Assembly: GCA_020846935.1 (NCBI GenBank)
Contig: JADLCY010000011.1
Span: 1 to 64,000, forward strand
From: Gemmatimonadaceae bacterium
Lineage (GTDB): Bacteria; Gemmatimonadota; Gemmatimonadetes; Gemmatimonadales; Gemmatimonadaceae
DNA length: 64,000 bases
Direction: 5' to 3'
Shown: positions 167 to 31,923 of the stretch, one piece after another
Layout: the number at the start of each line of letters is the position of its first letter
Position numbering within the stretch: the stretch's first letter is position 1
The notes under the pieces: generated by a model
Seen by the model: only the letters and a program-made list of their open reading frames with translations
Databases searched by the model: none
Told to the model about the DNA's origin: nothing
Translations under genes and position numbers: made by a program

Positions 167-769
167 GTGGCCCATAGCCGTACGACCGCGGTCGAGCACC
201 ATGCCCGCCAAGCGGGTACCGGGTCGCTCATCGCCATCCTCCCTCGGCTGCCGGGGCGCTCGATCACGGCGTACGGCTGGCGCGACACCTTGCCAGGTGG
301 CACGTGGGAGATCATTGGCGATGGATCACCCGCGATGGCGATGACCCAGCATAACGAGATCCGGTGGCGACGCTGGCGGCTGACGACGGCCGTGGACGGG
401 ATCTTCGGCGTCAGGTATCCTAACGAGGATCAGTACCGCATGGACCGCCTGGGCCTCTCGGACGACGCCGACGGAGGTCTTTCGCGCGCGGCGTCGGTCC
501 AGGCGCAGGCGCCGGTGTACGTGCAAGATGCCGCTTACCTCCGGCTGCGCGAAGTTGCGGTGTCCCTGCCGTTGCGTCGCTCGCCGGGAGGCCCCGAGGT
601 GCACGCCGAGGTCGCGATCCGGAACGCGCTCACCTGGTCACGGTTCGACAACCTTGATCCGACGTCACGACGGTTGGTGACGGCGACTTCGGCGCGCTTC
701 GGCCCGGCCGCGGATGTCCCGATCATGCGCGCCCTCAGCGTCGCGCTGTCGTACGGCTTCAACCCATGA
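167..769 (+). pseudogene. C-terminal remnant of a SusC/RagA-type TonB-dependent receptor
   Basis: The translated tail reads like the end of a SusC/RagA outer-membrane receptor: a YVQDAAYLRLREVAVSL segment, then an AIRNALTWSRFDNLDP strand pair, then a final strand ending in SYGFNP at the very C-terminus, as a barrel should. Only about 150 convincing residues remain of a protein that is normally around 1000 residues long. An in-frame stop at 95-97 closes the frame upstream, so the gene is really truncated and not merely cut by the window edge. The first M at 167 is only the first available start. It sits next to transposase debris (903-1508), which suggests the truncation came from a past insertion or rearrangement. 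Family assignment is from sequence pattern; pseudogene status is inference. Confidence 0.6.
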
Positions 770-902
770 GCTGCGCCTGTGGCGGTGCGCAGGACGAGAC
801 ACGCGTCGCTCGGTTTGTCCCCTTCCCTCGACGATGCGTTCGCCCGCGCGACGCGTAGACAGCATGAGCCGTACCGGGACTCGTGGGCGGAGAGTTAAGC
901 TA

Positions 903-998
903 TTGACGGCAGCCGTTCGAAGTCGATGAGACTGTGTTGCTGAGTGAGGAATGCCTCCGCGTGAGATTGTAGAAGCGTTCGATGCAGTCGAAGGTGTC
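903..998 (-). pseudogene. C-terminal scrap of an IS3-family transposase (OrfB end)
   Basis: About 32 codons on the minus strand read DTFDCIERFYNLTRRHSS followed by a short tail and a stop. The IERFYN..RRHSS pattern is the usual C-terminus of IS3-group OrfB integrases. Nothing of the rest of that transposase lies upstream in the same frame; it joins directly to a different IS3-type transposase at about 1000. It is a non-functional fragment. Confidence 0.6.
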
Positions 999-1003
999 CG
1001 GCG

Positions 1004-1508
1004 ACCGCCTAACGCGTCGGCTGGCGTGACAAAGCCGCTCGCGCTGTGCAGTCGCTGGTGATTGTAATACGTCACGAACGCCGCCACGAGGACCCTTGCC
1101 GCCTCCACCGATGGCGGGCGATGCGGCCGAATCGTGGTGACCCTGAGCGTCTGGCGCCAACGCTCGATCCTCCCATTCGACTGCGGGTAGTACGGCGACG
1201 TCCGTACGTGCGTCATGCTGCGGGTGCGAATCAGCTCTTTGAAGTCGCGAGCGACGGAGGGGGGACCGTTGTCGGAGATGATGCGGGGATGCGCCGGGGG
1301 GTACAGCTCGCGGGCGCGCTGAATCACGATCTCGACCTCTGGCGTCGTCATCTGCGCGGAGTTCCCGGTGCAGGAGGTATCGGCTGGCGCCGTCCAGGAG
1401 CGAGCAGAGGTGGTGGAACGTCCCGGCGGCGTCGACGTAGCTGACGTCGGTGTGCCAGTGGTCGTACGGCAGCGTCGGCTGCTCGAAGCCGTCGCCTTTC
1501 CGCGAGGG
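1004..1508 (-). pseudogene. IS3-family OrfB integrase-core transposase, frameshifted and truncated
   Basis: The minus strand carries an rve-type integrase core in two frames. The first part (1508 to about 1355) gives PPSRKGDGFEQP, HWHTDVSY, GTFHHLCSLLDG and a SRYLLHREL stretch. The second (from 1351) gives MTTPEVEIVIQRARELYP, IISDNGP, TSPYYPQSNGRIERW and GFVTPADALGG. The DDE residues are visible as D in HTDVSY, D in SDNGP and E in GRIERW. The two parts are joined at 1352-1358, where two bases appear to be missing (CGCGCAGATGACG). The C-terminus is lost at about 1004, where another IS3 remnant begins. The open frame of the first part runs on to 1625 without recognisable similarity. I see no terminal inverted repeats or target duplication. 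Confidence 0.75.
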
Positions 1509-1645
1509 CGGCGCCACCGGACCGTCGTGGCAATGGCGCGGAGTCGTGAGAATCCCAGGGGTGACGACCCGTTTGTGCGTCAAGGTGTCCTGCTGCCAAC
1601 CTGTGGGCGCGGGTGCCGGCGTCACTCTCCGCGGAGGTCACGACA

Positions 1646-2488
1646 ATGAAGAAAGGCGGCTTGGCTGTTCTCGCACTCGGCGTCCTCCTGGCTGCCCCGG
1701 CCGGACCGTCCGAAGCCCAGGGGATCCGGGGATTGATCAGGAAGAAAGCGGAAGAGGCGGTGAAGGGTCCGGAGGCCGCAAAGGCGGAGGAGATGCCGGG
1801 AGCGCTCAAGAACCCGGACGTGATCCCGATCAACACGGCGACGATGGAGTACGTCAAGCGTGGCCTGAACGTCGAAATCTCCGAGCGCGCGGCCCTCACG
1901 AAGTTTCTCTCGGGGATCAAGACACAGGAGGAGTACCAGACGTGCAGCAGCGGCGTGGCCATGACGCCGGAGGGCCAGAAGGTCGCCATGCGCATCGGCG
2001 ACCTCCCGGAAAACGCGACCCAGGCGCAGATGCAGGCCGCGATCGCGAAGATGAACGAAGAAATAAGCGCCCTCGTGCTCAAGGCGTGCGGTGAGGATCC
2101 ACGCAAGTACGCGGGCAACTGGCGCGGGCAGCGCCTGCGTGAAATCGAGGAGAAGGCCGCCGCCGCGGCCGGCCCGGACACGGGCGACGACGTCGAGCCC
2201 GTCGCGCCGCAGACCGCTTCCGAAGCGGATGGTGAGGCGCTGCAGATGGGGCCATTCCTGGCGCCGGCGCCTGCAGCGGCTGGAATGACGCCGCGGCAGT
2301 ATGCCATCTACAAGGAACGCCTGGCCGCCTTCTGCACGGCCATCAAGAGCGGGTGGAAGCCCGCCTCCACGCCGATCGTGAAGATGCCCGGCTCGGGCAG
2401 CGCTGTGTGGTACTTCACGCAGGATGAAGTGCAGGACATGCTGAAGAAGTGCGAGGAGATGATGGCGTTGATTGCGCAGGTCACGTGA
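1646..2488 (+). CDS. secreted hypothetical protein, alanine/glutamate-rich
   Basis: An exported protein of 280 residues that I do not recognise. The start at 1646 is chosen because GGAGG at 1633-1637 lies at Shine-Dalgarno distance and because it gives a clean signal peptide: MKKGG, a hydrophobic stretch of about 14 residues, then cleavage near PSEAQ. The mature part is charged, with two single conserved-looking Cys regions (QTCSS at about 102 and KACGE at about 150), a low-complexity Ala/Asp/Glu linker around residues 175-200, and two more Cys (AFCTA and KKCEE) in the C-terminal third. The stop overlaps the GTG start of the next gene by four bases, so the two are translationally coupled and may work together at the cell envelope. 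Confidence 0.75.
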   Translation: MKKGGLAVLALGVLLAAPAGPSEAQGIRGLIRKKAEEAVKGPEAAKAEEMPGALKNPDVIPINTATMEYVKRGLNVEISERAALTKFLSGIKTQEEYQTCSSGVAMTPEGQKVAMRIGDLPENATQAQMQAAIAKMNEEISALVLKACGEDPRKYAGNWRGQRLREIEEKAAAAAGPDTGDDVEPVAPQTASEADGEALQMGPFLAPAPAAAGMTPRQYAIYKERLAAFCTAIKSGWKPASTPIVKMPGSGSAVWYFTQDEVQDMLKKCEEMMALIAQVT

Positions 2489-3590: not shown

Positions 3591-4139
3591 CTACTTGACG
3601 AACACCATCTGCCTGACGGTCAGACGGCGCTCCGCCACGGCACGGAGGATGTCGGTGGCGGAGAGGATTCCGACGAACCCGCTCGCGTCCGTAACGATCG
3701 CGCGCTGCACTCCGGCCTCCAGCAAACGTTGCGCCGCGTACGACACTTCGGTGTCGGCAGGAAGGGTGCAGACGGTTTTCGACATGGCTTCGCCGACGGT
3801 GTGGCTGTCGAGGAATCCCATCGCGCGGCCTTCGGCGGCGACGCGCTCAACCACATCCTCGCGCCCGGTCCACAGGTCAGTGAAGTACCTCGAAGACCAC
3901 TCGTCGCCCTCACTCCACTCTTCCACCGGATCCGCTTCGTCCTCCCGGGTTTCATCGCCAACCACGGACTCGAACTCCAGGAGGTCGGGTGCCGAGAGAA
4001 CACCGACAACGCGACCCGCGTCCACGACTGGCGCTCCCTGGATCCGACACGTGACGAGGGTATCGACCGCCTGACGGAGCGTCTGGTTTGGCGCAAGGGT
4101 CACCACATTGGGCGTCATGATCTCCTTGACTCGCAGCAT
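3591..4139 (-). CDS. tandem CBS-domain protein
   Basis: 182 residues made of two CBS domains, the adenosine-nucleotide sensing (Bateman) module. CBS1 spans about residues 5-58 (VKEIMTPNVVTLAPNQTL, GAPVVDAGRVVGVLSAPDLL). CBS2 spans about 115-176 (VGEAMSKTVCTLPADTEV, RAIVTDASGFVGILSATDIL). The linker of some 55 residues is strongly acidic and longer than usual. No catalytic domain is attached, so it is probably a small soluble regulator that acts on a partner. It lies 95 bases downstream of the last cytochrome gene on the same strand and could be co-transcribed with that operon, which would allow energy-charge control of the electron conduit; this is inference. Confidence 0.85.
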   Translation of the reverse strand: MLRVKEIMTPNVVTLAPNQTLRQAVDTLVTCRIQGAPVVDAGRVVGVLSAPDLLEFESVVGDETREDEADPVEEWSEGDEWSSRYFTDLWTGREDVVERVAAEGRAMGFLDSHTVGEAMSKTVCTLPADTEVSYAAQRLLEAGVQRAIVTDASGFVGILSATDILRAVAERRLTVRQMVFVK

Positions 4140-4234: not shown

Positions 4235-5821
4235 CTAACGCCGTCGCGGGTCGGTGATATGGCATCTGGCGCACATGGCCATTGCCTTGCGCCCCAGTCG
4301 ATTGGCGTCGAAGTCCCGACCGTGCGGATTGACCCCCCACCCCGTGGTGGCGTGGCAGCGCAAGCAGGTGGCCTGGGTATGACACGTGGTACAGGTCGCC
4401 AGTTCGAGGCGCGCCGCACGGCCGTGCTGAAGCAACCACTGCGGCTGCGCGTTGTGGTAGGTGGCAGCGTCGCGACCCTCCGCCTGGAGTCCCGAGGCCT
4501 GGTGACAGGCGCGACAGAAGACCTCGGTGTTGTGGCACGAGGCACACTCGCGGTCGCGCGCATAGGTGGACGCTGCATGCCCGGCGGCGTAGTTCGGCGG
4601 GTGAAAGGCGCGCCGCGATTCCCCGGCGTGACAATCCGAGCAGAAGCGCTGGGCGTGACATCCGGCGCACGACGTGAGCCCCGACGATGCGGCACCACGG
4701 TGCGACTCCACGAAGTTCACGGGATGTGGGCGGACCAGGCGCGGCGTGGTGTCAGCACTCCGGCGGACGTCGGTCGCGCGCGGGAGCCATCGTCCTCGGC
4801 CGTCCACCGGAGCGCGTCTCAGCTGAACCCCTCGCGGCGACGACGTGGGCTCCGGAAGAGCGCGCAGGACGGCGCGCGCCCCCAACCCCGTGTGGCAGGT
4901 CGTGCAACTCGAGCGCGCATGACAATTGGCGCAGGTGGCGGCACCGGCGATCGCGGCGGGTCCATGCCCGCGAATGAAATCCTCGCGACGGTGGCTATCC
5001 GGCGTTGGCCACACGGGCGCGCGGGCACGCACGAGTTGCGCCACCCGTGCGTCGGACCCGAGAGTGGCCGCGACCGCCAGTGTGGCCACGTTGAGGTGGC
5101 AGCGCGCGCAGCTCTCGCGCGCGTGACACGTGGCGCACGTCGCGGCCGCGAGCGGCGAACCCGGTGCATGCTGGGAAACAAACATGCGCGCCTCGTGTGT
5201 GGTCGGCTTCGGCAGGGCGCCGACGTCGAGGCCGCGTGCCGCCGTCAGGGGAACGTGGCACGCCTGACACCGATTCGCCGGGTCGAGGTGAGCGGGCGCC
5301 CGGTGGGCGTGGCAGCCCAGGCAGGTCGTGGCCCGGGCCGCCGTCACGTCCATGAATCCCCGGCCGGTGGTGCCGGCGTGACATGTCGTACAGACCCGCG
5401 CCGCGCTATCCCCAACCACAAAGTGCCGCTGGTGTGAGAATGCGAGCAGCCCCTGGGGTGCCGGGCGCGTCGGCGCCCGCCACTCCACGCGACGGACATC
5501 AGCGCCGTTGTGGCAGGCCACACAGGTGGTGGGGTTCGGAAAAAGGGCGGCCGCCGTATTCCCCGTGACATCAGCGTGGCACCCTTCACAGGTGGGAAAG
5601 AGACGCGCGTGCGCCGCATGAGGAAAGTCGCCCGGTGCCCTGAGCCGAACGATGCCGGTTTTCGCGACCGTGCGTGACGCGATCCCCGCAACGGATGGCA
5701 CTGCCTGGGCGGAAAGTCCGAGCGGATGAACGACACGGCAGGTCAGGAGCCCCGCGAACAGAGTCGCCGTCGCGCGGAGCGCCGTCCGCAGCCACCGCTG
5801 CCTAACGCGCCGGCCCCTCAT
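4235..5821 (-). CDS. 16-haem c-type cytochrome, last gene of the porin-cytochrome operon
   Basis: 528 residues with an N-terminal basic plus hydrophobic export signal (RTALRATATLFAGLLTCRVV) and sixteen CXXCH haem c motifs, among them CEGCH, CVACH, CTTCH, CLGCH, CQACH, CATCH, CARCH and CANCH. Many His residues between motifs could be distal ligands. The start at 5821 gives an ATGA overlap with the barrel gene upstream; the open frame goes further but the overlap start fits operon style. Spacing of motifs is irregular, with pairs about 10-12 residues apart near residues 200-215 and 275-290, as in large electron-carrier cytochromes. Likely periplasmic or outer-surface, passing electrons to or from the barrel encoded next to it. 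No known enzymatic signature (nitrite, hydroxylamine or tetrathionate reductase) is obvious. Confidence 0.85.
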   Translation of the reverse strand: MRGRRVRQRWLRTALRATATLFAGLLTCRVVHPLGLSAQAVPSVAGIASRTVAKTGIVRLRAPGDFPHAAHARLFPTCEGCHADVTGNTAAALFPNPTTCVACHNGADVRRVEWRAPTRPAPQGLLAFSHQRHFVVGDSAARVCTTCHAGTTGRGFMDVTAARATTCLGCHAHRAPAHLDPANRCQACHVPLTAARGLDVGALPKPTTHEARMFVSQHAPGSPLAAATCATCHARESCARCHLNVATLAVAATLGSDARVAQLVRARAPVWPTPDSHRREDFIRGHGPAAIAGAATCANCHARSSCTTCHTGLGARAVLRALPEPTSSPRGVQLRRAPVDGRGRWLPRATDVRRSADTTPRLVRPHPVNFVESHRGAASSGLTSCAGCHAQRFCSDCHAGESRRAFHPPNYAAGHAASTYARDRECASCHNTEVFCRACHQASGLQAEGRDAATYHNAQPQWLLQHGRAARLELATCTTCHTQATCLRCHATTGWGVNPHGRDFDANRLGRKAMAMCARCHITDPRRR

Positions 5822-7263
5822 CGGTCCCGCCCCGGGTCCGCGCCCACCGCCCACTCCAGTCGGACGGAGGCTCGACGCTGCGACCAGTCCGGTCCCACCG
5901 CATCGTTGGTCAGTCGATGCCGGTATTGCCCGGCCTCCACCCGCAGGCGCAGGTCGGGGCGGAGCGCCATCGAGGCGTGTGCAAAGCCGCCGAGTACGCG
6001 CCCCGTCCCGACGCGGTACTCGTAGATCGTCTGTCGTGCGCTGAACGATGCGCCAAAGTCCGCCTCACGGGTGGGGCGCCAGAGGAAGCCGGCCAAGCCG
6101 TCGGTCTGCGAGGCACCAACACCCACGTCCGCACCATACGAGGCCACCACAGACCAGGCCTCGCCCGGTTGCCAACTCCCGTCCATCGCGAGGCGCCACC
6201 CATCGGTGCGCAGCGGCACCGACTGCAGCCCCGTCCCGGGGTCGCTGTACCGTCGCCGCGCACTCGATGCACTCACACTGCGACCTCCGTCGGCACTCGT
6301 CCAGGTTCCGGTCACGCGCACCTCGTCGAAGCCAACCGGTGCGAAGGCACCCCAAATGGTCCACAGCTCGAAGAACGGTCGATGACGTCGCACTTCGGCC
6401 GAGAGGTCGAGCCCGCGGGTGATGCGTCGCGCGGCACGGATGCGTGCCTCATTCGCGATCCCGCTCGCCAGGTCGTACGCGAGGGCTGCGTCCATCCGTG
6501 CTCCCAGCCACCGCGTCGACCCATCGAGCGCGACACGGTCGGCGTACACCCCCGACCGATCGTCGGCGATGATGCGCAGGTAGGCCGCCGTCAGTGCCTG
6601 TACACCGCTCGTTGACCGCCACCTGCCCCTCCCCCCCACCAGCCATGCGCCATTGTCGGGCGGCAGGTCATCCACCTGTCCGATCTCTTCGGCGGTGTAG
6701 GCTTCGTTGATCCCCTGCACCAGGGCGCGTCCGCCGAGCACTTCACCGTCGAACGCGCCCCCGCGAATCAGGAGGGATCCGCCATCGTAGCTGTATGCCC
6801 CCAGCCCTCCCAGCGTCCACTGCCTTCCGAGGCGGAGGCGCCCCCGCGTTCGATCCACTTCCACGTACGCATCGAGCAGGTCGAATGGATCCGCCATTCG
6901 CGGCCATGAGGGATCGCCCTCCCCGAGGGGCGTGCGCGCTCGACCGTGCGCGTGAACCGAGATCCCTTCCCCCATGCCCCACCCAGCGACCGAGATATCG
7001 TGCAACACGGGTTGCAACAGGACTCGCGTCGCGGCGGCGAGGAAGGCGCAATACGCGACGCCGTCCGGGCAGCTGACGATGGTACCATCGGGTCCCCGAC
7101 GGATCCCGTTGCTTTCCGTCGTCAGCGAGCGCGCGACGGAGTCGCGACGAAAGGGGCGCAGGTCGATCCCCTGCCACCACGACGACCCCGTGATCCGCAC
7201 GCCCTGCGCTCCGGCGTTCGTGGCGAGGAGGGCCATCCACGTGACGAGATGTGGCCAACGCAT
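5818..7263 (-). CDS. outer-membrane beta-barrel (porin) of the cytochrome operon
   Basis: 481 residues with a signal peptide (MRWPHLVTWMALLATNAGA, cut before Q) and a body of alternating amphipathic strands rich in Arg, Gly, Trp and Tyr, typical of a barrel; for example GRLRLGRQWTLGGLGAYSYD, then many short strand-turn-strand units to a C-terminal VRLEWAVG strand. No haem motif is present, apart from an unrelated CPDGVAYC pair near residue 65. The start at 7263 shares one base with the upstream stop (TGATG). Its position between two multihaem cytochrome genes suggests it plays the MtrB/PioB/OmbB part, a barrel sheathing an electron wire across the outer membrane. Similarity to those families is not visible by eye; the role is inferred from fold and context. 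Confidence 0.7.
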   Translation of the reverse strand: MRWPHLVTWMALLATNAGAQGVRITGSSWWQGIDLRPFRRDSVARSLTTESNGIRRGPDGTIVSCPDGVAYCAFLAAATRVLLQPVLHDISVAGWGMGEGISVHAHGRARTPLGEGDPSWPRMADPFDLLDAYVEVDRTRGRLRLGRQWTLGGLGAYSYDGGSLLIRGGAFDGEVLGGRALVQGINEAYTAEEIGQVDDLPPDNGAWLVGGRGRWRSTSGVQALTAAYLRIIADDRSGVYADRVALDGSTRWLGARMDAALAYDLASGIANEARIRAARRITRGLDLSAEVRRHRPFFELWTIWGAFAPVGFDEVRVTGTWTSADGGRSVSASSARRRYSDPGTGLQSVPLRTDGWRLAMDGSWQPGEAWSVVASYGADVGVGASQTDGLAGFLWRPTREADFGASFSARQTIYEYRVGTGRVLGGFAHASMALRPDLRLRVEAGQYRHRLTNDAVGPDWSQRRASVRLEWAVGADPGRDR

Positions 7264-9236
7264 CACTCCGTTCCCCCCGGCCAGGTCACGAGGTGGCACG
7301 TACCACAGTCAGCTCCGGGCTTATGGTCTCTCTGCTTCGCATGGCAGGCGAGACACACCTGGCGGCTCGGTGGCAACGTTGCGGTGCCGGCCCTCTCGTG
7401 ACACGATCCGCAGGTCACATGCGTGGAGCGCGTATGGACAGCATTCGCGTCCGCGTGACAGGTGCCGCAGACGGCGTTTGCGCGGTGATGGTCGGTGTGG
7501 CACGACGCACAGCTCACCGTTACGGCCTTCGTCACGCCGCCGTCGTGGCACGAACCGCAGGGTACGGCATCGTGCCTGCCGTGCGACATGGGCAAGTCGC
7601 GCTGAACGGGCGTCGCGCGTCGGGTCACACGGATGGGCGTTGGCACGAAGGCCGTCGCCGATAGCTCCGACGGCGTATGACAGGTTGCGCAGGTTCCCGC
7701 GCGCGCGTCCGCCGCGTGATGACATGACTGGCACCCGGCAGGTGCGGTGATGGTCACGGTCCCATGCGCTCGCGCCGTACTGTGGCACGAGGTGCAGGCG
7801 ACCTTCCGGTGCCTGGCATGGTCGAATGTCGTGTCGCGCGCTGGAAGTCGATCCAGCGGCTGCATCGACGCCTGCGAGGCGTCCGAGTCCACATCGCGAG
7901 GCCCGGACCTGCGAGGCACGACGTGCCCCATCGACGGGAGCGAACGCTCCATACCTCCGGAAGGAGCCGGTGAGGCTGCGCGCCGTCGGAGCGGGATGGG
8001 TCCGCGACGATAGATGTCGCGGTGGCAATCAATGCACCTTGTGCCCTGCACCTTCCAGCTGTGCGGCTTGTGGCATGCCCCACACTGGTCGAGCGTGTGT
8101 GCACCAAGACCCCGGTGAAAGGCCGTGAGGGTATCGGCCGACGCGTGACACCCAGCGGTGGCGCACGACGTGAACGCCTTGCCCGCCGTTGACTGATCGT
8201 GCGGGTTGTGGCAGGTACCGCAGGTCGCCTGGTGTGGATCCTTGTCGAGGTCTCGTTCGGCAAGCTTGGCGCGCATCTCATGGCACGAGAAGCACTCCGG
8301 GCGAGCCGGCACCAGCGCCTGACGCGTGGAATCGATCGGGATCTTCTCGTTGACGGATCGGCCAAAGTCGTGGCAGGTCACGCAATGCAGCCCGCTCTGG
8401 CCGGCCATCGCACCGAGGCGCACCTCCGTGTCCTCGTGACACCCTGACGACTGGCACGAGACGTCGGTGGCCCTGAAGGCGTGAACGTCCCGGGCGTGGC
8501 AATCGATGCACATCAGGTCGTTCAGGACCGACGAGTCGCTCCTGAAGTGCACCGCATGTCCGGCGGTTGCGATGACGCGCTTCCAACTGGAGTCTGCCTG
8601 GCTCTGCTCGTGACACTCGGCGCAGATCCGGTTGGGGACCGGGGCGTGTTGCGGGATCTTCTCAGGACGGTCGAGGACCCAGTAGTAGAGTTCCTGCGCA
8701 CTGGCAAAGATCGACTGCTGGTGGCACGCGTGGCACTCGAGCTTATCGTGTTCCGAGACACGGAACCGATTGAAGGCGCTCTTCATGACGTGACAGCTCG
8801 CGCAGAAGTCGTTGTCGTGCATCATGAAGTTCCAGCTCCACGCGCCCGCGCCACCAACCACGCCGATGGTGAAGAGGGTGGTGGCGCCCAGGGCGATCTT
8901 TGCCCCACGCGACCGCGTCACCAGCCACGTCCAGATCCCCGTGCGATGCCGCCAGCTGAACACCAGGGCCGTGACACTGACGACGGCGGCCAGAACGATG
9001 CCCCCGATCTGTATCCACTGCGGGACTTCGTTGAAGAGGAAGCGGAAGAGGGCCGCCGCCCCCCCCGGGAGCGGTGCCTGGTCAAATCGTATGGAGTCGG
9101 CCGAGGTGGAGTCATGCACCCTCGCCACGCCCTGCGCGGCGGCGCGTGTCCACGGCGCGAGGGCCACGCAAACGAGGACGGCGGACACCCGTTCGCAGGT
9201 TGCCCGCCGTTTCGACTCACCGGTGGCGCGTAACAC
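7263..9236 (-). CDS. NapC/NirT-like membrane cytochrome fused to a long multihaem tail (20 haem motifs)
   Basis: 657 residues from a GTG start that directly follows the upstream TAG. There are three hydrophobic stretches: about 16-35 (probable signal peptide, ending AAAQ), 76-95 and 114-133. The third is followed at once by a NapC/NirT-type haem domain (DFCASCH, ECHACHQ, ICAECHE), the family that oxidises membrane quinols. Beyond it comes a tail with further motifs, giving eighteen CXXCH plus two CX4CH (CQSSGCH and CATAGCH). An Arg/Pro/Ser-rich linker without haems separates about residues 405-465. NapC proteins normally have four or five haems and stop there; here the quinol-facing module and a periplasmic wire appear to be one polypeptide. 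It would pass electrons from the quinone pool to the barrel-associated cytochromes. Confidence 0.8.
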   Translation of the reverse strand: MLRATGESKRRATCERVSAVLVCVALAPWTRAAAQGVARVHDSTSADSIRFDQAPLPGGAAALFRFLFNEVPQWIQIGGIVLAAVVSVTALVFSWRHRTGIWTWLVTRSRGAKIALGATTLFTIGVVGGAGAWSWNFMMHDNDFCASCHVMKSAFNRFRVSEHDKLECHACHQQSIFASAQELYYWVLDRPEKIPQHAPVPNRICAECHEQSQADSSWKRVIATAGHAVHFRSDSSVLNDLMCIDCHARDVHAFRATDVSCQSSGCHEDTEVRLGAMAGQSGLHCVTCHDFGRSVNEKIPIDSTRQALVPARPECFSCHEMRAKLAERDLDKDPHQATCGTCHNPHDQSTAGKAFTSCATAGCHASADTLTAFHRGLGAHTLDQCGACHKPHSWKVQGTRCIDCHRDIYRRGPIPLRRRAASPAPSGGMERSLPSMGHVVPRRSGPRDVDSDASQASMQPLDRLPARDTTFDHARHRKVACTSCHSTARAHGTVTITAPAGCQSCHHAADARAGTCATCHTPSELSATAFVPTPIRVTRRATPVQRDLPMSHGRHDAVPCGSCHDGGVTKAVTVSCASCHTDHHRANAVCGTCHADANAVHTRSTHVTCGSCHERAGTATLPPSRQVCLACHAKQRDHKPGADCGTCHLVTWPGGTE

Positions 9237-10772
9237 CTAGTTGCTGGCCTTCCGACCGAGGATGATCTGATCGTACGGCGCGAGCCGCAGCCCCGGCGGC
9301 GCAGCGACGCCGTAGTCCCGGGCTACCTGGGCGATCGACGCGCGGAGGAGCGCCTTCACGAGGAAGGGGTTGTGCGCGTCCGACCCCGGCATCCCCGCCA
9401 GATTGTAGTTGAACAGAGCACCGCGATACGTGGTGAGACCCGATCCCTTCTGCGCGGCAGGAATGAGGGGGCTCTGGAGCATGCCGTTCAGCGCCCCGCG
9501 AAGCAGCGCGATGTCCGCGTCCGCACTGGTGAGCGCCGTCCGGGCACTCGCCTCGGTGTGGCACCCCGACGCCGCACATCCCTTGAACGACCGTTGGGTG
9601 AGCTGCGTGCAGCTCTGGTCTGCGGTCGGTTGTCCGTTGCCGTCGACGCACGGAATGGCGGTGAAGCGGTGTCCGGTGACGGTCACGATGAACTTGTTCG
9701 TCGCCTTGTCGTTCACGGCGTACTTCTGCACGTGACACGTCGCACAGAGCCGCGGGTTCTTCTCGGAGCCGTGCGACGACTCCGTCTCGGTGAATGCAAC
9801 CCCGGGAGGCCACCAGCCGGCGGTGCCGAGGACGAGCGGACCGTGCGGGGCGTGCGGGGCGGTGTTGCTCGACTGGGCAAGGTCGAAGTTGCCGCGTCGG
9901 TTGTGGCACTTGATGCAGAGGTTGTTGTCCGGATCACGTGAGTCGATGGGAAACCGCAGCTGCCTGGGGTTCGCCGAACCATGGGGGTCGTGGCACACCG
10001 CGCAGGTGGTCCCGATCGCCGTGCTGTTGCCCACACAGCGGCCGTTCACCGCCGTGGCGCAGTTGGGCTGCTCGACCTTCTCGGTGTAGTTGGTGTTCAC
10101 CCCCCAGGCCAGGAGCACCTTCTGGCCCACATGGCAACTCTGGCAGGCGGCGCGTACTCCGCCGGCGACTTCACCGGGTGGGAGAGGACTCGTTGGCGTC
10201 GCAGAGTTGAAGACCGTCGTCCGGGCCGTGGCATGACGGGTCTTGCGCCAGTCCTCAACAAACGGTTGATGTGAGCCTGAGTGGCACTCGGAGCATCCCG
10301 TCGTGATCGCGGTGCCGGTGTCCGCCTTGGCCGAGGGGAGCATCTGCCCGCGCGCCGGGACGCCGATGTGCTGCAGGCCAGCGCCATGGCAGCTCTCGCA
10401 CTGCACGTCCTGGTACCGCGGATCCTTTGTCGAACGCCAGGCAACGGCGGTGTCAATGGTCGCGTTCCCCAGATTGCTGACGGTGTGACAGGCCTGGCAG
10501 AACCCCTGCTTTCCCGCATTGGTGTCCAGCGTCTGCCACGCGCCCGCGTGTTTCGTCTCCTTCCACTTGCCTTGCTGGCTGACATGACAATTGCCACACA
10601 CCGTCCGCTTGGCCGCGTGGTCGTCGTAGCCGACGAAACTGGCGGCTGCGGCCGGTGGGGCGGCGAAGTTCGGTCCGTCCCGGTACACAATCTTCTCGTC
10701 CACGCAGCCCGCGAGGAGGAACAACACACCGGCGACTGCCGGCATACGAGCCGACCAATGACCGTCACGCAT
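9237..10772 (-). CDS. multihaem c-type cytochrome lipoprotein (9 haem motifs), first gene of the operon
   Basis: 511 residues from the ATG at 10772, chosen for an upstream GAGGTG at good spacing and for the lipoprotein signal that follows (MPAVAGVLFLLAGC, lipobox LAGC with Cys23). Eight CXXCH motifs (CGNCH, CQACH, CESCH, CSECH, CQSCH, CAVCH, CIKCH, CATCH) and one CX4CH (CAASGCH). The CESCHGAG..H and CAVCHDPHG patterns recall cytochrome c-554-like electron carriers, and no catalytic site is evident. A non-haem C-terminal domain of about 90 residues follows the last motif. As a lipoprotein it is probably anchored to the outer membrane and could be the surface-exposed terminal carrier, the counterpart of MtrC or OmcB, or a periplasmic partner. 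The stop abuts the next gene without a gap. Confidence 0.85.
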   Translation of the reverse strand: MRDGHWSARMPAVAGVLFLLAGCVDEKIVYRDGPNFAAPPAAAASFVGYDDHAAKRTVCGNCHVSQQGKWKETKHAGAWQTLDTNAGKQGFCQACHTVSNLGNATIDTAVAWRSTKDPRYQDVQCESCHGAGLQHIGVPARGQMLPSAKADTGTAITTGCSECHSGSHQPFVEDWRKTRHATARTTVFNSATPTSPLPPGEVAGGVRAACQSCHVGQKVLLAWGVNTNYTEKVEQPNCATAVNGRCVGNSTAIGTTCAVCHDPHGSANPRQLRFPIDSRDPDNNLCIKCHNRRGNFDLAQSSNTAPHAPHGPLVLGTAGWWPPGVAFTETESSHGSEKNPRLCATCHVQKYAVNDKATNKFIVTVTGHRFTAIPCVDGNGQPTADQSCTQLTQRSFKGCAASGCHTEASARTALTSADADIALLRGALNGMLQSPLIPAAQKGSGLTTYRGALFNYNLAGMPGSDAHNPFLVKALLRASIAQVARDYGVAAPPGLRLAPYDQIILGRKASN

Positions 10773-11139: not shown

Positions 11140-11730
11140 CTACGGCCGCAACGCGGCGCCGAGCGCCCACTGCTCCAGGGCATGTCGCATCGATCCGAGG
11201 ATCGCGTCGAACGCGACCGGCGCCATGATCTCGACCAGGCCCGCGGCGGTGAGGGCTGCGCCGAATGTGACGCCAAGCATCCCGCCAATGCGATTCCCCA
11301 TCGTCCTTGCGAGTGGCGAAGTTGGAGCGTGCGTGAGCCGCCAGCCGTACCAGCGCGCGACGCCGCTGCAGAGGGTGCTCACCCCGACCGGAATCAGCGC
11401 CATCCCCGGGCGACGCAGCACGAGCACCATCAGCTGACGCTCGACGCCGGCATACCAGGTCCAGGCCACCACAAGCAGGACCATCCCCAGCGTGATGAGC
11501 CAAACGCTCCCCCACACCGCGGCCGTGCCGTGGTACGTCGCGTAGCGCAGGGTCGCATCCACAACGGCCTGGCGGCGGTGCAGCATGCCGTCGATGCCGG
11601 CAATGACGCCGGCGGCGGCAAACGCGGCGATCGCCGCCGCCTGCCACCGCCGTTGGGGATCGATCGCCGACAGGAGCCCGAAACCGATACCGATGGCTCC
11701 GCTGGCGAGCACCGCTCGATGCCACTTCAT
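11140..11730 (-). CDS. integral membrane protein of unknown function
   Basis: 196 residues with about five hydrophobic segments (roughly 7-23, 31-47, 68-90, 105-121 and 145-168) separated by short basic or charged loops such as DPQRRWQ, HRRQAV and LRRPG. I recognise no family motif. The start at 11730 gives the first transmembrane segment directly after MKWHR. It lies 94 bases downstream of the RCC1 lipoprotein gene on the same strand and may be the last gene of the sigma factor-kinase-RCC1 transcription unit. Confidence 0.65.
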   Translation of the reverse strand: MKWHRAVLASGAIGIGFGLLSAIDPQRRWQAAAIAAFAAAGVIAGIDGMLHRRQAVVDATLRYATYHGTAAVWGSVWLITLGMVLLVVAWTWYAGVERQLMVLVLRRPGMALIPVGVSTLCSGVARWYGWRLTHAPTSPLARTMGNRIGGMLGVTFGAALTAAGLVEIMAPVAFDAILGSMRHALEQWALGAALRP

Positions 11731-11824
11731 TCGACACCTCGGAATCTTCCGGCCGATTGTGCGCGACGAACTCGCGCACGGCGCGCGCGGCCCCTTGCCC
11801 GCGACTGGCCGTCGCCCTCTTCGA

Positions 11825-13933
11825 TTACTGCACGATGCGTGTTGGCGTCGCGCGGCTCACCATCGAGCCGTTGCCCAGTGCGTGGTTGCCGCCCTCTCCC
11901 CAGCAGTACACACCGCTACCGGACAGGCTCAAGGCGCAGATGTTCATCCCACCCGCGCTGATCTGCCGGAATCCGCCGGCGGGCATCGTGACGGCGGTCG
12001 GCACATTCCGATTGTCCCAGAGACCATTTCCGATCTCGCCATCATTTCCGCGCCCCCAGCACCAGGCGGTATCGGTGGTGTCGAGCGCGCACGTGGTGTT
12101 AGCCCGGGCCGACACGGTGCGAAAGCTGACGCCCGCCGCAACAGGCACGGCCGTGGGCACCATGACGCTGCTCGGCTGCCCGCCGCCGATGCCGAGGTAC
12201 CCGCCGCTGTTGCTCCCCCAGCAGTAGATGCGTTCGATCGTCAGTCCCGTCGTAACGGCGCACACGCGAGATCCACCAGCCGCAATGCTGCTGAACGTCA
12301 GCGGAGCAACACCCGATCCGACGACCTGGACCGGCGTCGATCGGTGCACCTGCTGCCCGTCCCCAAGCGCCCCCTGGAACCCCGCCCCCCAACACCAGGC
12401 CGCGCGCACCTGCGTCACGCCGCACGTGATGTTGCCCCCGGCGCTCACCTGAACAAAGTCCAACGGGGCCATGCCCGTTCCGGAGACCTTCGTCGGCGTC
12501 GCCTGCACCGTTGACGTTGTCCCATTTCCCACCTGCCCATAGATGTTCTCTCCCCAGCAATACACCGCGCGCACAACAATCCCGCAGGTGTGGTTCTCGC
12601 CGGAATGAATCGATGAATACACTCTCCCGCCACCCGGACCGGAAGCGGACACCAGGACGGGCGCCGTGCTGCTGGTCGACGCGCCATTCCCAAGCTGTCC
12701 GCTCTGCCCATCGCCCCAGCACCAGACCTCGCCAACGGTCGTCAAGCCGCACGCATGCGCTCTACCAGTGGTCACCTGCACGAATGGGTATGCTGCATTC
12801 ACCAGGAAGGGGACGGGCTCGCGGGGGTCCGCGCGGACGGAACCGAGTTGCCCATCGAAGTTCGCTCCCCAGCAGTACGTACCACCCGGAGCAATGCCGC
12901 AACTGAATCCCGATCCCGACGAGTTCGTGCCCCCGGTGGAGACCGCGCTGAAACTGATGCGCACGTCGAACGGAGCGCTCTGCCCGACAATCGTCCCCAC
13001 GTATGCTTCCAGCCGATACCCACTGCCTGGGCGATCCACCGTGAGTCCGGGAAAGTCAGCCGTGCCGGCTGGCGCCAGCTGCGTGAGAGTTCCTCCCAGC
13101 TGCGTGCGCGGCCACGGGGCGTTCGCCAGCCGGAGGGAGACGGTCTGGTTCGCGACGACGTTGTCGAGGCTGTCGCGCGCCTCAATGCGCACCGAAGGGA
13201 CCATCCGCAGGTTCCCCTCGACATTCGGAGGTGGCTGCGTGACAAAGACCAGCTTGCCCAACGGGCCGGCAATGACGTCGAACGGCGCCGTCGGAGGAGA
13301 CGTCAGCGTCCCGGACGTGGCCACCAGAGCATAGCCTGTTCCCGCCCTGGCGATCTTCACACCGACAAACTGCGCCAAGCCGCCGGCGGCGTTCATCGAT
13401 ACCGTCCCGCCTACCGTCGCGTTGCCGGGGTTGGGCGCCAGACTCAGGGTCACCGCTCCGGTGAACGACGTCACCCGCGCTCCACCGCCGTCCTCGGCGG
13501 TCACGGCCACTCCAAACGGTTCTCCGGCCTTCCGGTCTCCCGACACACCCGATGAAAGGAGCGCGGCGCGAAGGCGGGCGACCTGTTGTGCCACGTTCAC
13601 CACGGCCTGGCCGACTTTGCCGTCCACCGTCGCGCTGATCGTGGCGCTGCCGTTTCCGACTGCGGTCACCACACCTGATGGGTCAACGATTGCCACGGCG
13701 GACGACGACGACGACCAGACCGGCGTCTTTCCGCCAAGGACTGTCCCCCTTCCGTCCTTCACCACCGCCGAGAACGTCTGTGTTGCGCCAAGCGTTGCCA
13801 GGGAGACCGAGGTCGGCGTGACGTCCACGCTCGCCGTGACTCCCGCGGGGGGGCCCGACGGAGCCTCGGTTCCCTTGCTGCAGCCCACCGCCGCCAGGAG
13901 AGCCGCCACTGCGGCCACCAGGATCAATCGCAT
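11825..13933 (-). CDS. secreted lipoprotein with Ig-like domains and a seven-bladed RCC1 propeller
   Basis: 702 residues from the ATG at 13933, preceded by GGAGG at eight bases; this start gives a lipoprotein signal (LLAAVGC, Cys18). Residues of about 35-115 form a BIG2/Ig-like domain (VDVTPTSVSLATLGATQTF, VTAVGNGSATISA). Two further Ig-like segments follow to about 370. The C-terminal half holds seven RCC1-type repeats, each with a Y/WCWG core followed by G.LG or a close variant, and each with a second Cys nine to fourteen residues before the core (for example CGIAPGGTYCWG). The paired Cys probably form one disulfide per blade, suiting an exported propeller. Blades usually bind proteins; the ligand is unknown. 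It follows the kinase gene by 147 bases on the same strand. Confidence 0.85.
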   Translation of the reverse strand: MRLILVAAVAALLAAVGCSKGTEAPSGPPAGVTASVDVTPTSVSLATLGATQTFSAVVKDGRGTVLGGKTPVWSSSSSAVAIVDPSGVVTAVGNGSATISATVDGKVGQAVVNVAQQVARLRAALLSSGVSGDRKAGEPFGVAVTAEDGGGARVTSFTGAVTLSLAPNPGNATVGGTVSMNAAGGLAQFVGVKIARAGTGYALVATSGTLTSPPTAPFDVIAGPLGKLVFVTQPPPNVEGNLRMVPSVRIEARDSLDNVVANQTVSLRLANAPWPRTQLGGTLTQLAPAGTADFPGLTVDRPGSGYRLEAYVGTIVGQSAPFDVRISFSAVSTGGTNSSGSGFSCGIAPGGTYCWGANFDGQLGSVRADPREPVPFLVNAAYPFVQVTTGRAHACGLTTVGEVWCWGDGQSGQLGNGASTSSTAPVLVSASGPGGGRVYSSIHSGENHTCGIVVRAVYCWGENIYGQVGNGTTSTVQATPTKVSGTGMAPLDFVQVSAGGNITCGVTQVRAAWCWGAGFQGALGDGQQVHRSTPVQVVGSGVAPLTFSSIAAGGSRVCAVTTGLTIERIYCWGSNSGGYLGIGGGQPSSVMVPTAVPVAAGVSFRTVSARANTTCALDTTDTAWCWGRGNDGEIGNGLWDNRNVPTAVTMPAGGFRQISAGGMNICALSLSGSGVYCWGEGGNHALGNGSMVSRATPTRIVQ

Positions 13934-14080
13934 GAGAGGTTCCTCCAGTTCGACTCGCCAGAGCCTTCCATACAACAGAACGCAAACCAGTGCCAATCGG
14001 GGCCATCGGCCTGCCCGGCCAGACTCCCAGACTCCGGACGGCGACGCGGCCCGACCGGCGCGCCTGCTGGTGGGCAACAG

Positions 14081-17011
14081 CTACCGCGGAGCTGGTCCCT
14101 GCCTCGAATCCCGTCGCGGACGGCGCACGCGCTCCAGGTCGACGAGCACCGCGGCGGCTCTGGAACGGTGACCGGGGAAGCGACGATAGACCTCAGCACT
14201 CTCCATCAGCAAAGATTCGGCCGCCGCCCACTCCCGTAGCCGGACCTTTGCCCGCGCCAGCAGATGCGCGGTCTCGGCGCGCCGATAGTCGAAACCCGGA
14301 AGCTGCGATTCCTGGATGGCGCGTGCGGCCCGAAGTACAGAATCCGCTTCCGAGACGCGCCCGGTGTGCAACAGCACCTCCCCGAGCGTCGACTGCGCCT
14401 CGGCCAACCGTGGGTGGTCCGACAGCAAGGCGACGCCGAAGATCGTGATCGCTTCGCGCACCTGTTGTTCGGCCTCGGCGTTCCTCCCAGTTCGCCCGAG
14501 GATCATCGCCAGGTTCCGCCTCGAGGCACCCACATCGACGGCCGAATCGCCAAGCGCGGCCCGGCGCAGCGCCAGCGCATCGCGCACCAGGCGCTCCGCC
14601 TCCCGGAGATCTCCGGCGTAGGCCCGCGCCACCCCAAGGTTGTTGATGGCCGTCGCTGTCCGTGGATCGCGTGGGCCATAGATCACACTCCAGCGTTCCA
14701 CGATCTCACGAAAGACCGTGGCGGCACTGTCGAACGCACCGATGCGCACGAGCAGAACGGCCAGATTGTTTGCCGTCTGCAACGTCACGGGATGGTCGGC
14801 GCCGAGCACCTTTCGTCGGATCGCGAGCGCTTCGCGACCGAGCGGCTCGGCCTCCGTCAGTCTCCCCTGATCCTCGAGGTTGCTGGCGAGCGAGTGGAGC
14901 GAGTACGCCACATCGGGGTGCCCCGGCGGAAGGACGCGTCGACGGCGAGCGAGCACTTCACGATTGAGCGACTCCGCCTGTGCCACGCGACCGAGCTTGC
15001 CCCAGGTGACGGCCATGTTCCCCAGCAGGGTGAGAACCCGCGGGTGATCCGACGGGAGCGCCGCCTGTCGAATGGCAAGAGCACGGCGATACACCGAGTC
15101 GGCTCCGTGATCCTGATTGAGCTGGTCGAGCGTGACGCCGAGGTTGGCCAGATCGGTGGCAACGCTCAGACTCTGCGCACCGAAACGCGCCTCATCGAGC
15201 GCGAGCACTTCGCGATGCAGCGACTCGGCGCGCGTCCAGTCCCCCATGTCCTCCAGGTTGTTGGCCACTTCGGAGAGCGTCGCGACGTGGCCAGGAGATT
15301 GGCGGAGCTTGGCGCTTCCCTGCTGTATGGAAAGGGCACGCCGGAGCAGCGAGTCCGCGCCTGCGTAGTCGCCAGCGAGGTTGAGCACCGTCGCGAGGTC
15401 GGTGAGCCTGGCCGCAAGTTCTTCCGCGCCGCGCCGACCTCGGGATTTCTCGGCGATCGTCACGGCGCGACGCAGTGCCGCCGTTGCCTCCGGGATCATG
15501 CCAAGCTCGCGATACGTGACCCCAAGTACCCCCAGCAGTTCCTGCTGCACGCCAGGCTGATTGCCAAGTGAGGAATCCACGCGGCGCAGCCCGCGGTCAA
15601 TCAGGTCACGGGCAAGGGTCTCCCGCCCAACGGACTCGTCGGGATTGGCACTCCGGAAGAGGCCAATGACGAAGTCACGCGTCTCGCGCGCCTTGACTGC
15701 CTCGTCTCGCGCCACGCGCGCCTGCCACAGGGTTCCCGCGAGGCCCGCCACGAGCGCAACCACCACGACCGCGGTCGCGGAGACCGTCACAACATTGCGC
15801 CTCACGAACTTGCGCAGCCGGTACCGAAGCGAATCGCGGCGGGCCAGGACCGGCAGTCCGCCACGGTAGCGGTGGAGATCCTCCAGGAATGCCTCGACGG
15901 ACGAGTAGCGCTGTGCGGGATCCTTGTGCAGGGCGCGCGAGAGAATCGTGTCGAGATCACCGGCGAGCAACCGCTGCAGACGGCCTGGATGGCTGGCGCG
16001 ACGCCTGGCAATCTCCCCGGCCCCCACCGTCTCGGCAGAACCGCGCACGACGGGCTGGCCAGCGGCGACGCTCGCCCGCGGTGGCTCCACATGGCAGATC
16101 ACGCGTTCCAGCTCACCGGGCGTCAGCCGCTCGAACTCGTGCGCGCGATGTCCGCACAGCAGTTCGTAGAGAACCGCGCCCAGCGCATAGATGTCCGTGG
16201 CTGTGGTGATCGTCTCCCCGCGGACCTGCTCGGGTGCCGCGTAGTCCGGCGTCAGCATCCAGAGTCCGGTAACCGTCTGTCCCGCTCCGGCCATTTCGTG
16301 GCCGGCCAGCACCTTGGCGATGCCGAAGTCCAGGAGCTTCGCCGTGCCGTCGGCGGTGACCAGGATGTTCGAGGGCTTGATATCCCGATGGACCACGAGG
16401 TTCTGGTGCGCGTACTGCACCGCGCCCGCCACCTGTTCGAAAATCGTTAGGCGCTGGCGAACACCCAGTTGGCGTTCGTCACACCACGTGGTAATGGGGA
16501 CGCCGTCGACATATTCCATGCCGAACCACGGCGCGCCATCGGCCAGCGCTCCGCCATCAACGAGGCGTGCGAGGTTGGGGTGCTGCAGGCCCGCGAGAAT
16601 CTGCCGCTCGGCGATGAAGCGCGACATGATGTCCGCGGACTGCGCCGCGTTGCGCACCAGCTTGAGCGCCACCCGCTGCCGAAACCCGCCGTCGGCGCGC
16701 TCGGCCAGGTACACGACACCCATGCCGCCGCGTCCGATCTCGCGCTCCACCCGCCATGGCCCCACCAGGGCTCCGAGGAGACTCGTGTCGCGGGACGCGG
16801 GAGCCGCGATGCCGAGGACTCGCCCCGCTGGTTCGTCCATGAAGTCGGCGGCTCGATGCAAGGCCACGACCAATGCCTGCACTTCGGACCGGAGGGACGG
16901 GTCGCCCTCGCATGCCTGGTCCAGGGCCGCATCGCGAGCTTCCGGCGCGACGTCGAGTGCCAGGTCCAGGAGTTCCTCCAGCCGCCTGGCGCGCGAGGAG
17001 GCCCCGCTCAT
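14081..17011 (-). CDS. transmembrane Ser/Thr protein kinase with TPR (kinesin-light-chain type) sensor domain
   Basis: 976 residues. Kinase domain at about 85-370: glycine loop GRGGMGVVYLAE, VALKLV lysine, catalytic HRDIKPSN, DFGIAK and the PEQ variant of the APE motif. A transmembrane helix at about 413-433 (VSATAVVVVALVAGLAGTLW) leads to an outside domain of ten or so tetratricopeptide repeats of the kind with long Leu/Ala helices (SVATDLANLGVTLDQL, VAYSLHSLASNLEDQG, HPRLAEAQSTLGEVLL). This is the Hanks-type architecture common in Gemmatimonadota, Acidobacteriota and Planctomycetota. The start codon directly follows the stop of the sigma factor gene (TAG then ATG), so the two are an operon and the kinase may sense a ligand or protein and control the sigma factor or a shared target. 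Confidence 0.92.
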   Translation of the reverse strand: MSGASSRARRLEELLDLALDVAPEARDAALDQACEGDPSLRSEVQALVVALHRAADFMDEPAGRVLGIAAPASRDTSLLGALVGPWRVEREIGRGGMGVVYLAERADGGFRQRVALKLVRNAAQSADIMSRFIAERQILAGLQHPNLARLVDGGALADGAPWFGMEYVDGVPITTWCDERQLGVRQRLTIFEQVAGAVQYAHQNLVVHRDIKPSNILVTADGTAKLLDFGIAKVLAGHEMAGAGQTVTGLWMLTPDYAAPEQVRGETITTATDIYALGAVLYELLCGHRAHEFERLTPGELERVICHVEPPRASVAAGQPVVRGSAETVGAGEIARRRASHPGRLQRLLAGDLDTILSRALHKDPAQRYSSVEAFLEDLHRYRGGLPVLARRDSLRYRLRKFVRRNVVTVSATAVVVVALVAGLAGTLWQARVARDEAVKARETRDFVIGLFRSANPDESVGRETLARDLIDRGLRRVDSSLGNQPGVQQELLGVLGVTYRELGMIPEATAALRRAVTIAEKSRGRRGAEELAARLTDLATVLNLAGDYAGADSLLRRALSIQQGSAKLRQSPGHVATLSEVANNLEDMGDWTRAESLHREVLALDEARFGAQSLSVATDLANLGVTLDQLNQDHGADSVYRRALAIRQAALPSDHPRVLTLLGNMAVTWGKLGRVAQAESLNREVLARRRRVLPPGHPDVAYSLHSLASNLEDQGRLTEAEPLGREALAIRRKVLGADHPVTLQTANNLAVLLVRIGAFDSAATVFREIVERWSVIYGPRDPRTATAINNLGVARAYAGDLREAERLVRDALALRRAALGDSAVDVGASRRNLAMILGRTGRNAEAEQQVREAITIFGVALLSDHPRLAEAQSTLGEVLLHTGRVSEADSVLRAARAIQESQLPGFDYRRAETAHLLARAKVRLREWAAAESLLMESAEVYRRFPGHRSRAAAVLVDLERVRRPRRDSRQGPAPR

Positions 17012-27810: not shown

Positions 27811-27818
27811 GGGCGCTC

Positions 27819-29891: not shown

Positions 29892-30826
29892 CGCACCGTG
29901 CGCATGCGTTCGCGCTTTACCAGGTACTCGAACAACATGCGATCGAGCGGTTGGGACGTATCGACGAGCGCGTAGTCGACCTGGTTCTCTCCAAGCACCT
30001 TGGCCATGCGCGCCACATGGCTCCCGATCGCTTCGAGATACTCCTCACGAAGCTTGCCGGGAATGACCGGAACGCGCATGCCGGTCTCGACATCACGAAA
30101 GGTCGTGGCATCCGTATACGGCAGGGTACGCTCGGCGCTATCAAGGATGTGGAACACGATCACGTCGTGGCCGCCGTCGCGCAGCGGCGCGAGGGCCTTC
30201 ACCACCACCTCGGGCGCCTCGTACAGATCGGACAAGAGCAGAAAGATGCCGCGCCGCGTCTGGTTCTCGGCGACGCGCTGGAGCGGCGCGGTGAGGCCTC
30301 CCTTGCCGCGGGCTTCCGCGCGGTCGAGCGCATGCAGTACGTGACTCAGGTGTCGCGCCGACGGCGGCACAATCTCGCGCACGGCCTCGTCAAAGGTGAC
30401 CAACCCGACGCGATCGCGCTGACGGTGCGAGAAATACGTCAGGCACGCGCCGAGGAACTTGGCGTACTCGAGCTTCGTGAGTCGCTCGTGCCGAAAGCCC
30501 ATCGACGCCGAGGTGTCGAGGAGCACCGTGAAGTTGGTGTTCGTATCGGCTTCGAAGGTCTTGAGGTAGTAGCGCTCCGTGCGTGCATACACCCGCCAGT
30601 CGATTCGGCGGATGTCGTCGCCCGGCATGTACGCCCGATGCTGCGCGAAATCCGTGGAGAACCCGAGGTGCGGCGATCGGTGCAGACCGGAGATGAAGCC
30701 CTCCACCACCCAGCGGGCGACAAGCTCCAGGTCACCGATGCGGCCCAGGATGGCCGGATCGATGAACTGCGCTCCGGGCATGCCGGCGTCGCGGTCCGTA
30801 CTGGTCGGTGGATGCGGGGTGGTCAC
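29888..30826 (-). CDS. DUF58 domain protein of the MoxR operon
   Basis: 312 residues, with the DUF58 core GDDIRRIDWRVYARTERYYL and a VWA-like fold carrying a MIDAS-type DTSASM (VLLDTSASMGFRHERLTKLE). No transmembrane helix is apparent. The listed start is a GTG at 30826 without a clear Shine-Dalgarno; an ATG at 30781 (MPGAQFIDPAILGRI) is an equally possible start and gives the usual N-terminus. DUF58 proteins always accompany MoxR ATPases and BatA-type VWA proteins and are presumed partners in one membrane-associated complex. The C-terminal stop overlaps the BatA gene start by four bases. Confidence 0.9.
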   Translation of the reverse strand: MTTPHPPTSTDRDAGMPGAQFIDPAILGRIGDLELVARWVVEGFISGLHRSPHLGFSTDFAQHRAYMPGDDIRRIDWRVYARTERYYLKTFEADTNTNFTVLLDTSASMGFRHERLTKLEYAKFLGACLTYFSHRQRDRVGLVTFDEAVREIVPPSARHLSHVLHALDRAEARGKGGLTAPLQRVAENQTRRGIFLLLSDLYEAPEVVVKALAPLRDGGHDVIVFHILDSAERTLPYTDATTFRDVETGMRVPVIPGKLREEYLEAIGSHVARMAKVLGENQVDYALVDTSQPLDRMLFEYLVKRERMRTVR

Positions 30827-30872
30827 GATGAGGAGGTGCGCGCGAGCAAGGGAGTCGACCGAAATGAGCAGG

Positions 30873-31910: not shown

Positions 31911-31923
31911 TCGTCTCTCGGGG

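Follow-up and report, generated by a model that had tools for sequence, protein, structure and literature searches.

A 64,000-nucleotide stretch of DNA from a Gemmatimonadaceae bacterium (assembly GCA_020846935.1, contig JADLCY010000011.1, positions 1 to 64,000; hereafter the window) contains four consecutive genes, g1 to g4, for which an original prediction had proposed an operon of cytochromes and a porin running from the quinone pool to the cell surface (Table 1). The four genes at positions 4235-10772 abut or overlap as had been described, with the junctions TAG/GTG (g1/g2), TGATG (g2/g3) and ATGA (g3/g4). A ribosome-binding-like site, GAGGTG, lies 5' of g1. A sigma-70 scan gave no convincing promoter for the operon, the scan model being one that does not cover the promoters of Gemmatimonadota. 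The mechanical open reading frame (ORF) of g4 begins at GTG 5854, upstream of the start used in Table 1. Counted in the correct frames, the haem motifs matched the predicted total of 45 and its division among a lipoprotein and two larger cytochromes (9 + 20 + 0 + 16 for g1 to g4). These consist of eight CxxCH and one CX4CH (CAASGCH) in g1, 18 CxxCH and two CX4CH in g2, and 16 CxxCH in g4. Composition-preserving shuffles yielded a mean of 0.18 CxxCH for g2 and 0.13 for g4, with a maximum of 3, and no frame in the window other than those of g1, g2 and g4 contains more than one CxxCH.

Table 1. Position and character of the operon genes and of the two modules of g2.
Feature	Coordinates	Strand	Description
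g1	9237..10772	minus	511-amino-acid lipoprotein with 9 haem motifs; ATG start
g2, whole	7263..9236	minus	657 amino acids, 20 haems, predicted inner-membrane cytochrome; GTG start
g2, N-module	7974..9236	minus	signal-like segment, two transmembrane-like helices, 11 haems
g2, C-module	7263..7871 (stop codon included)	minus	9-haem class III/c7-like periplasmic domain
g3	5818..7263	minus	481-amino-acid predicted outer-membrane beta-barrel, 0 haem motifs; ATG start
g4	4235..5821	minus	secreted 16-haem cytochrome; likeliest start ATG 5821

The g3 product was modelled with AlphaFold2 from a 63-member alignment of relatives, taken from 22% identity up. The model was of high confidence (predicted local distance difference test, pLDDT, 88.0; predicted template modelling score 0.81) and showed a signal helix followed by a transmembrane barrel of ~22 strands, as counted from the strand list, with no plug domain and two invariant cysteines (65 and 72). 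TonB-dependent receptors, whose 22-strand barrels enclose a plug, gave the best structural alignments (Z 19.8, root-mean-square deviation 4.0 A, 357 residues aligned), which are confined to the barrel portion of those proteins; a Foldseek search also matched g3 to MtrB of the Mtr complex (9e-8). The beta-barrel label given to g3 was thus borne out by the model and by its likeness to outer-membrane barrels. Because many outer-membrane barrels match one another, these alignments indicate a wide barrel and not descent from TonB-dependent receptors or MtrB. At the sequence level, no family in Pfam or NCBIfam and no solved structure searched matched g3. The MtrB/PioB models likewise gave no match to g3 of the window, and TIGR03509 matched one of the 63 members at E 0.045.

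The g2 product, which had been called NapC-like, is, by its motifs and profile matches, a fusion protein whose first module, of 11 haems, resembles quinol dehydrogenases and whose second has 9 haems, a point that goes beyond the original prediction. The N-module (residues 1 to ~420, with transmembrane-like helices at 75-93 and 114-132) carries nine CxxCH and two CX4CH motifs. Scored alone, it reached 29.0 bits against the Pfam NapC/NirT model (PF03264, cut-off 24.1), and the same model matched 21 of 28 N-module relatives at E values up to 0.001. The whole of g2 scored 21.0 bits, under the cut-off, and a whole-genome Pfam scan returned no NapC at E 0.001 because the long fused frame was scored as one. 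The N-module family profile aligned with NrfH (2j7a, E 2.8e-10), as did its first haem site, CxxCHxM (CASCH). The NrfH equivalog TIGR03153 (cut-off 134.2) was not reached by the N-module alone, which scored 38.9 bits. The NapC-like label is upheld by the Pfam score of the separated module and by the NrfH alignment. We regard the N-module as a candidate NapC/NrfH-like quinol dehydrogenase, in which the aligned CxxCHxM site is consistent with quinol oxidation. The C-module (residues ~456-657) gave profile matches to the sixteen-haem cytochrome 1z1n, the twelve-haem 3ov0 and nine-haem cytochromes.

The lipobox of g1 reads LLAGC, and its cysteine is invariant in all 41 relatives. Among solved cytochromes, the g1 profile matched 6qvm (1.3e-20) and 6i5b (2.7e-16), which we take to be Gram-positive surface cytochromes, the former of OmhA type (cytochrome cf of Carboxydothermus) and the latter OcwA. 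Matches were weaker to MtrA of 6r2q (4.2e-06), and to eight-haem nitrite reductases and hydroxylamine oxidoreductases they were weak (E ~5e-5 to 2e-4). OcwA has been described as a surface reductase (PMC6703420). TIGR03508, the model of the MtrA/DmsE decahaem family, matched every one of the 41 g1 members, but its score of 49.6 bits fell well short of the 192.2 cut-off. The OmcA/MtrC model TIGR03507 matched four of the 41 relatives below its cut-off (best 2.6e-6) and did not match g1 of the window, and the NCBIfam model for ExtKL matched six of 41 weakly (best 5.1e-5). From its lipobox and profile matches, g1 is a candidate terminal or surface cytochrome. In-frame stops in some g1 relatives and seleno-protein names among weak NCBIfam matches raised the question of selenocysteine, which was dropped; in the two loci compared (L069 and L093) the alignment overruns the normal stop.

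The g4 product is predicted to be secreted with a cleavable signal, has no lipobox in 49 of 50 relatives and carries one haem per 29 residues. By profile it is distantly related to HmcA. Its C-terminal part scored just above the cut-off of the MtrC/MtrF domain II/IV model, with a match in 33 of 50 members, and TIGR03508 matched three of the 50 (best E 2e-4) without reaching its cut-off. These features make g4 a candidate for a wire embedded in the barrel. The conserved histidines outside the haem motifs number 9 for the 9 haems of g1, 10 for the 9 of the g2 C-module and 16 for the 16 of g4; the g2 N-module has 12 such histidines and three methionines for 11 haems. Nearly every haem of the operon would therefore have a conserved candidate for its second axial ligand, as expected for bis-histidine wires, with the reservation that such counts do not assign ligands.

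The operon was found to be widespread in the phylum, a second point beyond the earlier account. Barrel relatives were present in 84 of 298 sampled Gemmatimonadota genomes and, in a pattern scan, in 23 GTDB species; none were found on the plasmids searched. The g1 profile matched 80 of 296 genomes of the phylum. Both g1 and g3 occurred in 76 genomes, g3 alone in 8 and g1 alone in 4 (~296 genomes; odds ratio 494, Fisher p 7e-56, uncorrected for relatedness). A multihaem cytochrome gene lay directly downstream of the barrel gene in all 59 non-redundant loci, and this gene was g4-like in each except one cut by its contig end, which itself had a weak g4 match. The full order of g1, fused g2, g3 and g4 on one strand was found in 29 of the 59 loci, down to ~25-30% barrel identity; the order listed for L055 differs solely through overlapping stop-to-stop frames.

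Outside the phylum, one Krumholzibacteriota genome has the whole operon, and weak barrel matches were obtained in 8 of 77 others. At the seven such loci examined (barrel E 1e-7 to 1e-12), a g4-like cytochrome (1e-12 to 5e-38) followed directly after the barrel in every case, with at least 12 haems where the gene is complete. Since these loci were searched for by the barrel alone, the pairing with a g4-like gene is an independent test. The Krumholzibacteriota pairs are probably part of a wider, unnamed conduit family. Taken with the conserved gene order and the co-occurrence, this second-phylum pairing supports a functional unit. More distant variants have g4 relatives of 9-12 haems, and further large cytochromes of 19-26 haems are encoded close by; these differing neighbours indicate that the barrel and g4 form the core while the other parts are modular.

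Several loci differ in their make-up. Partners with 19-25 haem motifs replace g1 and g2 at four distant Gemmatimonadota barrel loci (L069, L085, L089 and L092). The Krumholzibacteriota loci L116-L122 pair a distant barrel with a 12-haem cytochrome, L122 also having a 26-haem neighbour. Some Gemmatimonadota contigs or genomes hold two different barrel-g4 pairs (L011 and L057); in L011 these lie at 4523-7557 and 11317-14117, within 8 kb and on opposite strands. The 9-haem module of g2 is a gene of its own before the barrel in L011, L014, L016, L066, L067 and L070; two of these loci, L014 and L016, also encode the 11-haem NapC module separately, in a downstream gene. In a tree of the barrels, fused loci fell on both sides of the root, with at least 6 changes between 35 fused and 11 split loci; this was a quick tree with a midpoint root and fused or split labels assigned by hand, two to three of the split labels coming from contig-limited loci. 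The fusion would then be either old with repeated splitting or made repeatedly.

The operon was compared with known conduits and with related cytochromes. MtrCAB, MtoAB and PioAB likewise combine an outer-membrane barrel with a dense multihaem cytochrome, to which Mtr adds a surface lipoprotein cytochrome. They differ in that g3 falls outside the MtrB/PioB family, g4 has 16 haems against 10 and falls outside the MtrA/DmsE family, the operon includes its own putative quinol dehydrogenase, and the gene order is another. The Geobacter OmbB-OmaB-OmcB and Ext systems, considered with ImcH or CbcL, also join a barrel to periplasmic and lipoprotein cytochromes, a likeness of composition. The PCC3 and PCC4 operons, with a barrel, multihaem cytochromes and an inner-membrane redox partner, have been proposed by their authors to encode a conduit spanning the cell wall and were reported mostly in Proteobacteria (He et al. 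2017, PMC5566968). Their inner-membrane protein is cytochrome b-like, with five helices and two HX13H motifs, whereas here it is a NapC/NrfH-like 20-haem cytochrome c with two transmembrane-like segments. ImcH is a NapC-related quinol oxidase whose N-terminal helices adjoin an atypical haem motif (PMC6295460). As described there, it has three transmembrane helices, a CX3CH motif, 6-10 haems and no fused 9-haem module; the g2 N-module has, by contrast, two transmembrane-like segments and 11 haems, the first at CASCH, with its two CX4CH motifs lying further down the chain.

Among clusters reported from karst metagenome-assembled genomes, mostly of Gammaproteobacteria and Acidobacteriota, the second group similarly unites a barrel, decahaem cytochromes and ImcH or NapC/NirT-like inner-membrane cytochromes (PMC13264449, 2026). 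The text of that report describes decahaem cytochromes and barrels of 25-36 predicted strands, and contains no 16-haem g4 or 11 + 9 fusion. HmcA and the c7/c3-type wires (2e84, 3ov0) have the class III/c7 haem arrangement of g4 and the g2 C-module, and NrfH (2j7a) has the first-haem region of the N-module, including CxxCHxM. These proteins are, however, soluble or enzyme-bound and have no outer-membrane barrel, and their curated cut-offs were not reached by the operon proteins. Reports for Gemmatimonadetes include one MtrCAB (PMC8805035), two ImcH homologues and one CbcL homologue (PMC6295460), and Cyc2-like genes (PMC9769843); the two ImcH homologues might be such g2 proteins. A literature search, with many journals outside its coverage, found no description of the four-gene operon. 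The operon is predicted to work like the Mtr, Omb-Oma-Omc and PCC3/PCC4 conduits, yet its barrel and g4 lie outside the MtrB and MtrA families, and its inner-membrane component is neither the b-type protein of PCC3/PCC4 nor a standard ImcH.

These data are best read as a distinct porin-cytochrome conduit that includes its own entry point on the quinone side, and we consider it likely that the operon encodes an electron conduit across the outer membrane. The route from quinone pool to surface that had been proposed is supported by the gene order and co-occurrence in the phylum and by the barrel-cytochrome pairing in Krumholzibacteriota. In such a conduit, g2 would be anchored in the inner membrane, its NapC/NrfH-like first haems would exchange electrons with quinol, and electrons would pass from the N-module to the fused periplasmic C-module. 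From there g4, running through the plugless 22-strand barrel of g3, would take them up. The terminal cytochrome would be g1, most likely at the outer face, where it may exchange electrons with an external partner such as a metal oxide, humic substance, electrode or other cell. By analogy with quinol oxidation by NrfH, CymA and ImcH, outward flow is the more likely direction. Four observations weigh against this reading. The AlphaFold2 model of g4, made with 50 relatives, was weak (pLDDT 69.8) and gave no match in fold searches, so it does not bear out a g4 stretched into a wire of a size to fit inside g3. Relatives exist with no g1 or NapC module near the barrel, so that the full four-gene set is not obligatory. 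The default location of a lipoprotein is the inner leaflet, which bears on the surface exposure of g1. The genome otherwise belongs to an aerobe: it encodes four haem-copper oxidases above cut-off and a single conduit, and a second copy of the operon was not found in it.

Since the g2 N-module resembles NrfH and the g1 profile weakly matches multihaem reductases, the operon could be read as a periplasmic respiratory enzyme, with g1 reducing nitrite, hydroxylamine or a sulfur compound, g2 as its donor, g4 as an extra carrier and g3 as a plain substrate porin. We judge this very unlikely. The operon cytochromes have no CxxCK active-site haem, the nine conserved histidines of g1 leave no evident vacant site, and the matches of g1 to the presumed surface cytochromes are 10 orders stronger. 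Nor would an enzyme account for the barrel being so strictly paired with a 16- or 12-haem g4, a pairing kept in Krumholzibacteriota, or for a 22-strand barrel that lacks a plug. An NrfA partner for the NrfH-like module was rejected, as none scored above cut-off in the genome, and all NCBIfam equivalog cut-offs were missed by the operon cytochromes; the likeness to a known soluble enzyme system that would speak against a conduit was therefore not found. The sole NrfA match lies within an 875-residue cytochrome of contig C15 (L106:3121-6382; 8 haem motifs, C-terminal TPR-like repeats), which is weakly NrfA/octahaem-like, adjoins a dihaem c-type protein and is the only other large multihaem cytochrome noticed in the genome.

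A conduit could also run inward, as MtoAB and PioAB do, with electrons entering from Fe(II) or a different external donor and reaching either quinone or Alternative Complex III and the oxidases. On contig C6 of the genome, a pentahaem ActA-like protein (L105:3880-4566) suggests that Alternative Complex III is the main quinol oxidase, and together with the four haem-copper oxidases it points to an oxygen-respiring bacterium, for which such a route is possible; MtrAB homologues do work inward in Fe(II) oxidisers (PMC8805035). However, the quinone-side module is of the quinol-oxidising NrfH/NapC type, ImcH-type proteins were reported by Zhong and Shi in Fe(III) reducers only (PMC6295460), and the inward systems MtoAB, PioAB and PCC4 usually have no surface lipoprotein cytochrome (PMC5566968), and inward flow seems unlikely. 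Somewhat less improbable, though still doubtful, is an exchange of roles within the conduit, in which g4 is extracellular while g1, as a lipoprotein of the periplasm, feeds the barrel, or in which the barrel is occupied by the g2 C-module. The MtrC/MtrF match at the g4 C-terminus, the weak MtrA/DmsE likeness of g1 and the position of the 9-haem module directly before the barrel in split loci would fit this arrangement. It is opposed by the near-universal lack of a lipobox in g4 and its wire-like haem density, by the constant lipoprotein character of g1, and by the g3-g4 pair being the most conserved unit, as expected for a barrel and its plug.

Elsewhere in the window, the gene immediately downstream of g4 (3591-4139, minus strand like g4) encodes a two-CBS-domain protein, a possible regulator. 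Broken ORFs at 665-2307 (minus) with the integrase-core-like sequence WHTDVSYVDAAGTFHHLCSLLDGASRYLL are probably an insertion-sequence remnant. On the other side of the operon, 11825-14077 (minus) encodes a protein with RCC1 repeats and a bacterial Ig-like domain, and 23944-36409 (minus) a row of MoxR ATPase, DUF58, BatA/VWA and DUF4175 proteins.

Returning to the conduit with a quinone-side entry, the fusion in g2 bears on an open question in the field, whether electrons traverse the periplasm on shuttles or through direct contacts. We put forward only tentatively that fused g2 wires the periplasm directly. An equally speculative extension is a hard-wired conduit in which g2 spans the periplasm and docks on g4, so that no diffusing shuttle is needed, and in which Gemmatimonadota inherited the four-part wire from a common ancestor as a module for respiration or electron release. 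Soils and sediments harbour Gemmatimonadota in abundance, and to our knowledge the phylum is not regarded as metal-respiring. About one quarter of its genomes sampled here have the operon, which often occurs only once per genome; this makes extracellular electron transfer directly testable in a major soil phylum. Searches based on MtrAB would overlook this conduit family, for which the g3-g4 pair gives a marker at the sequence level.

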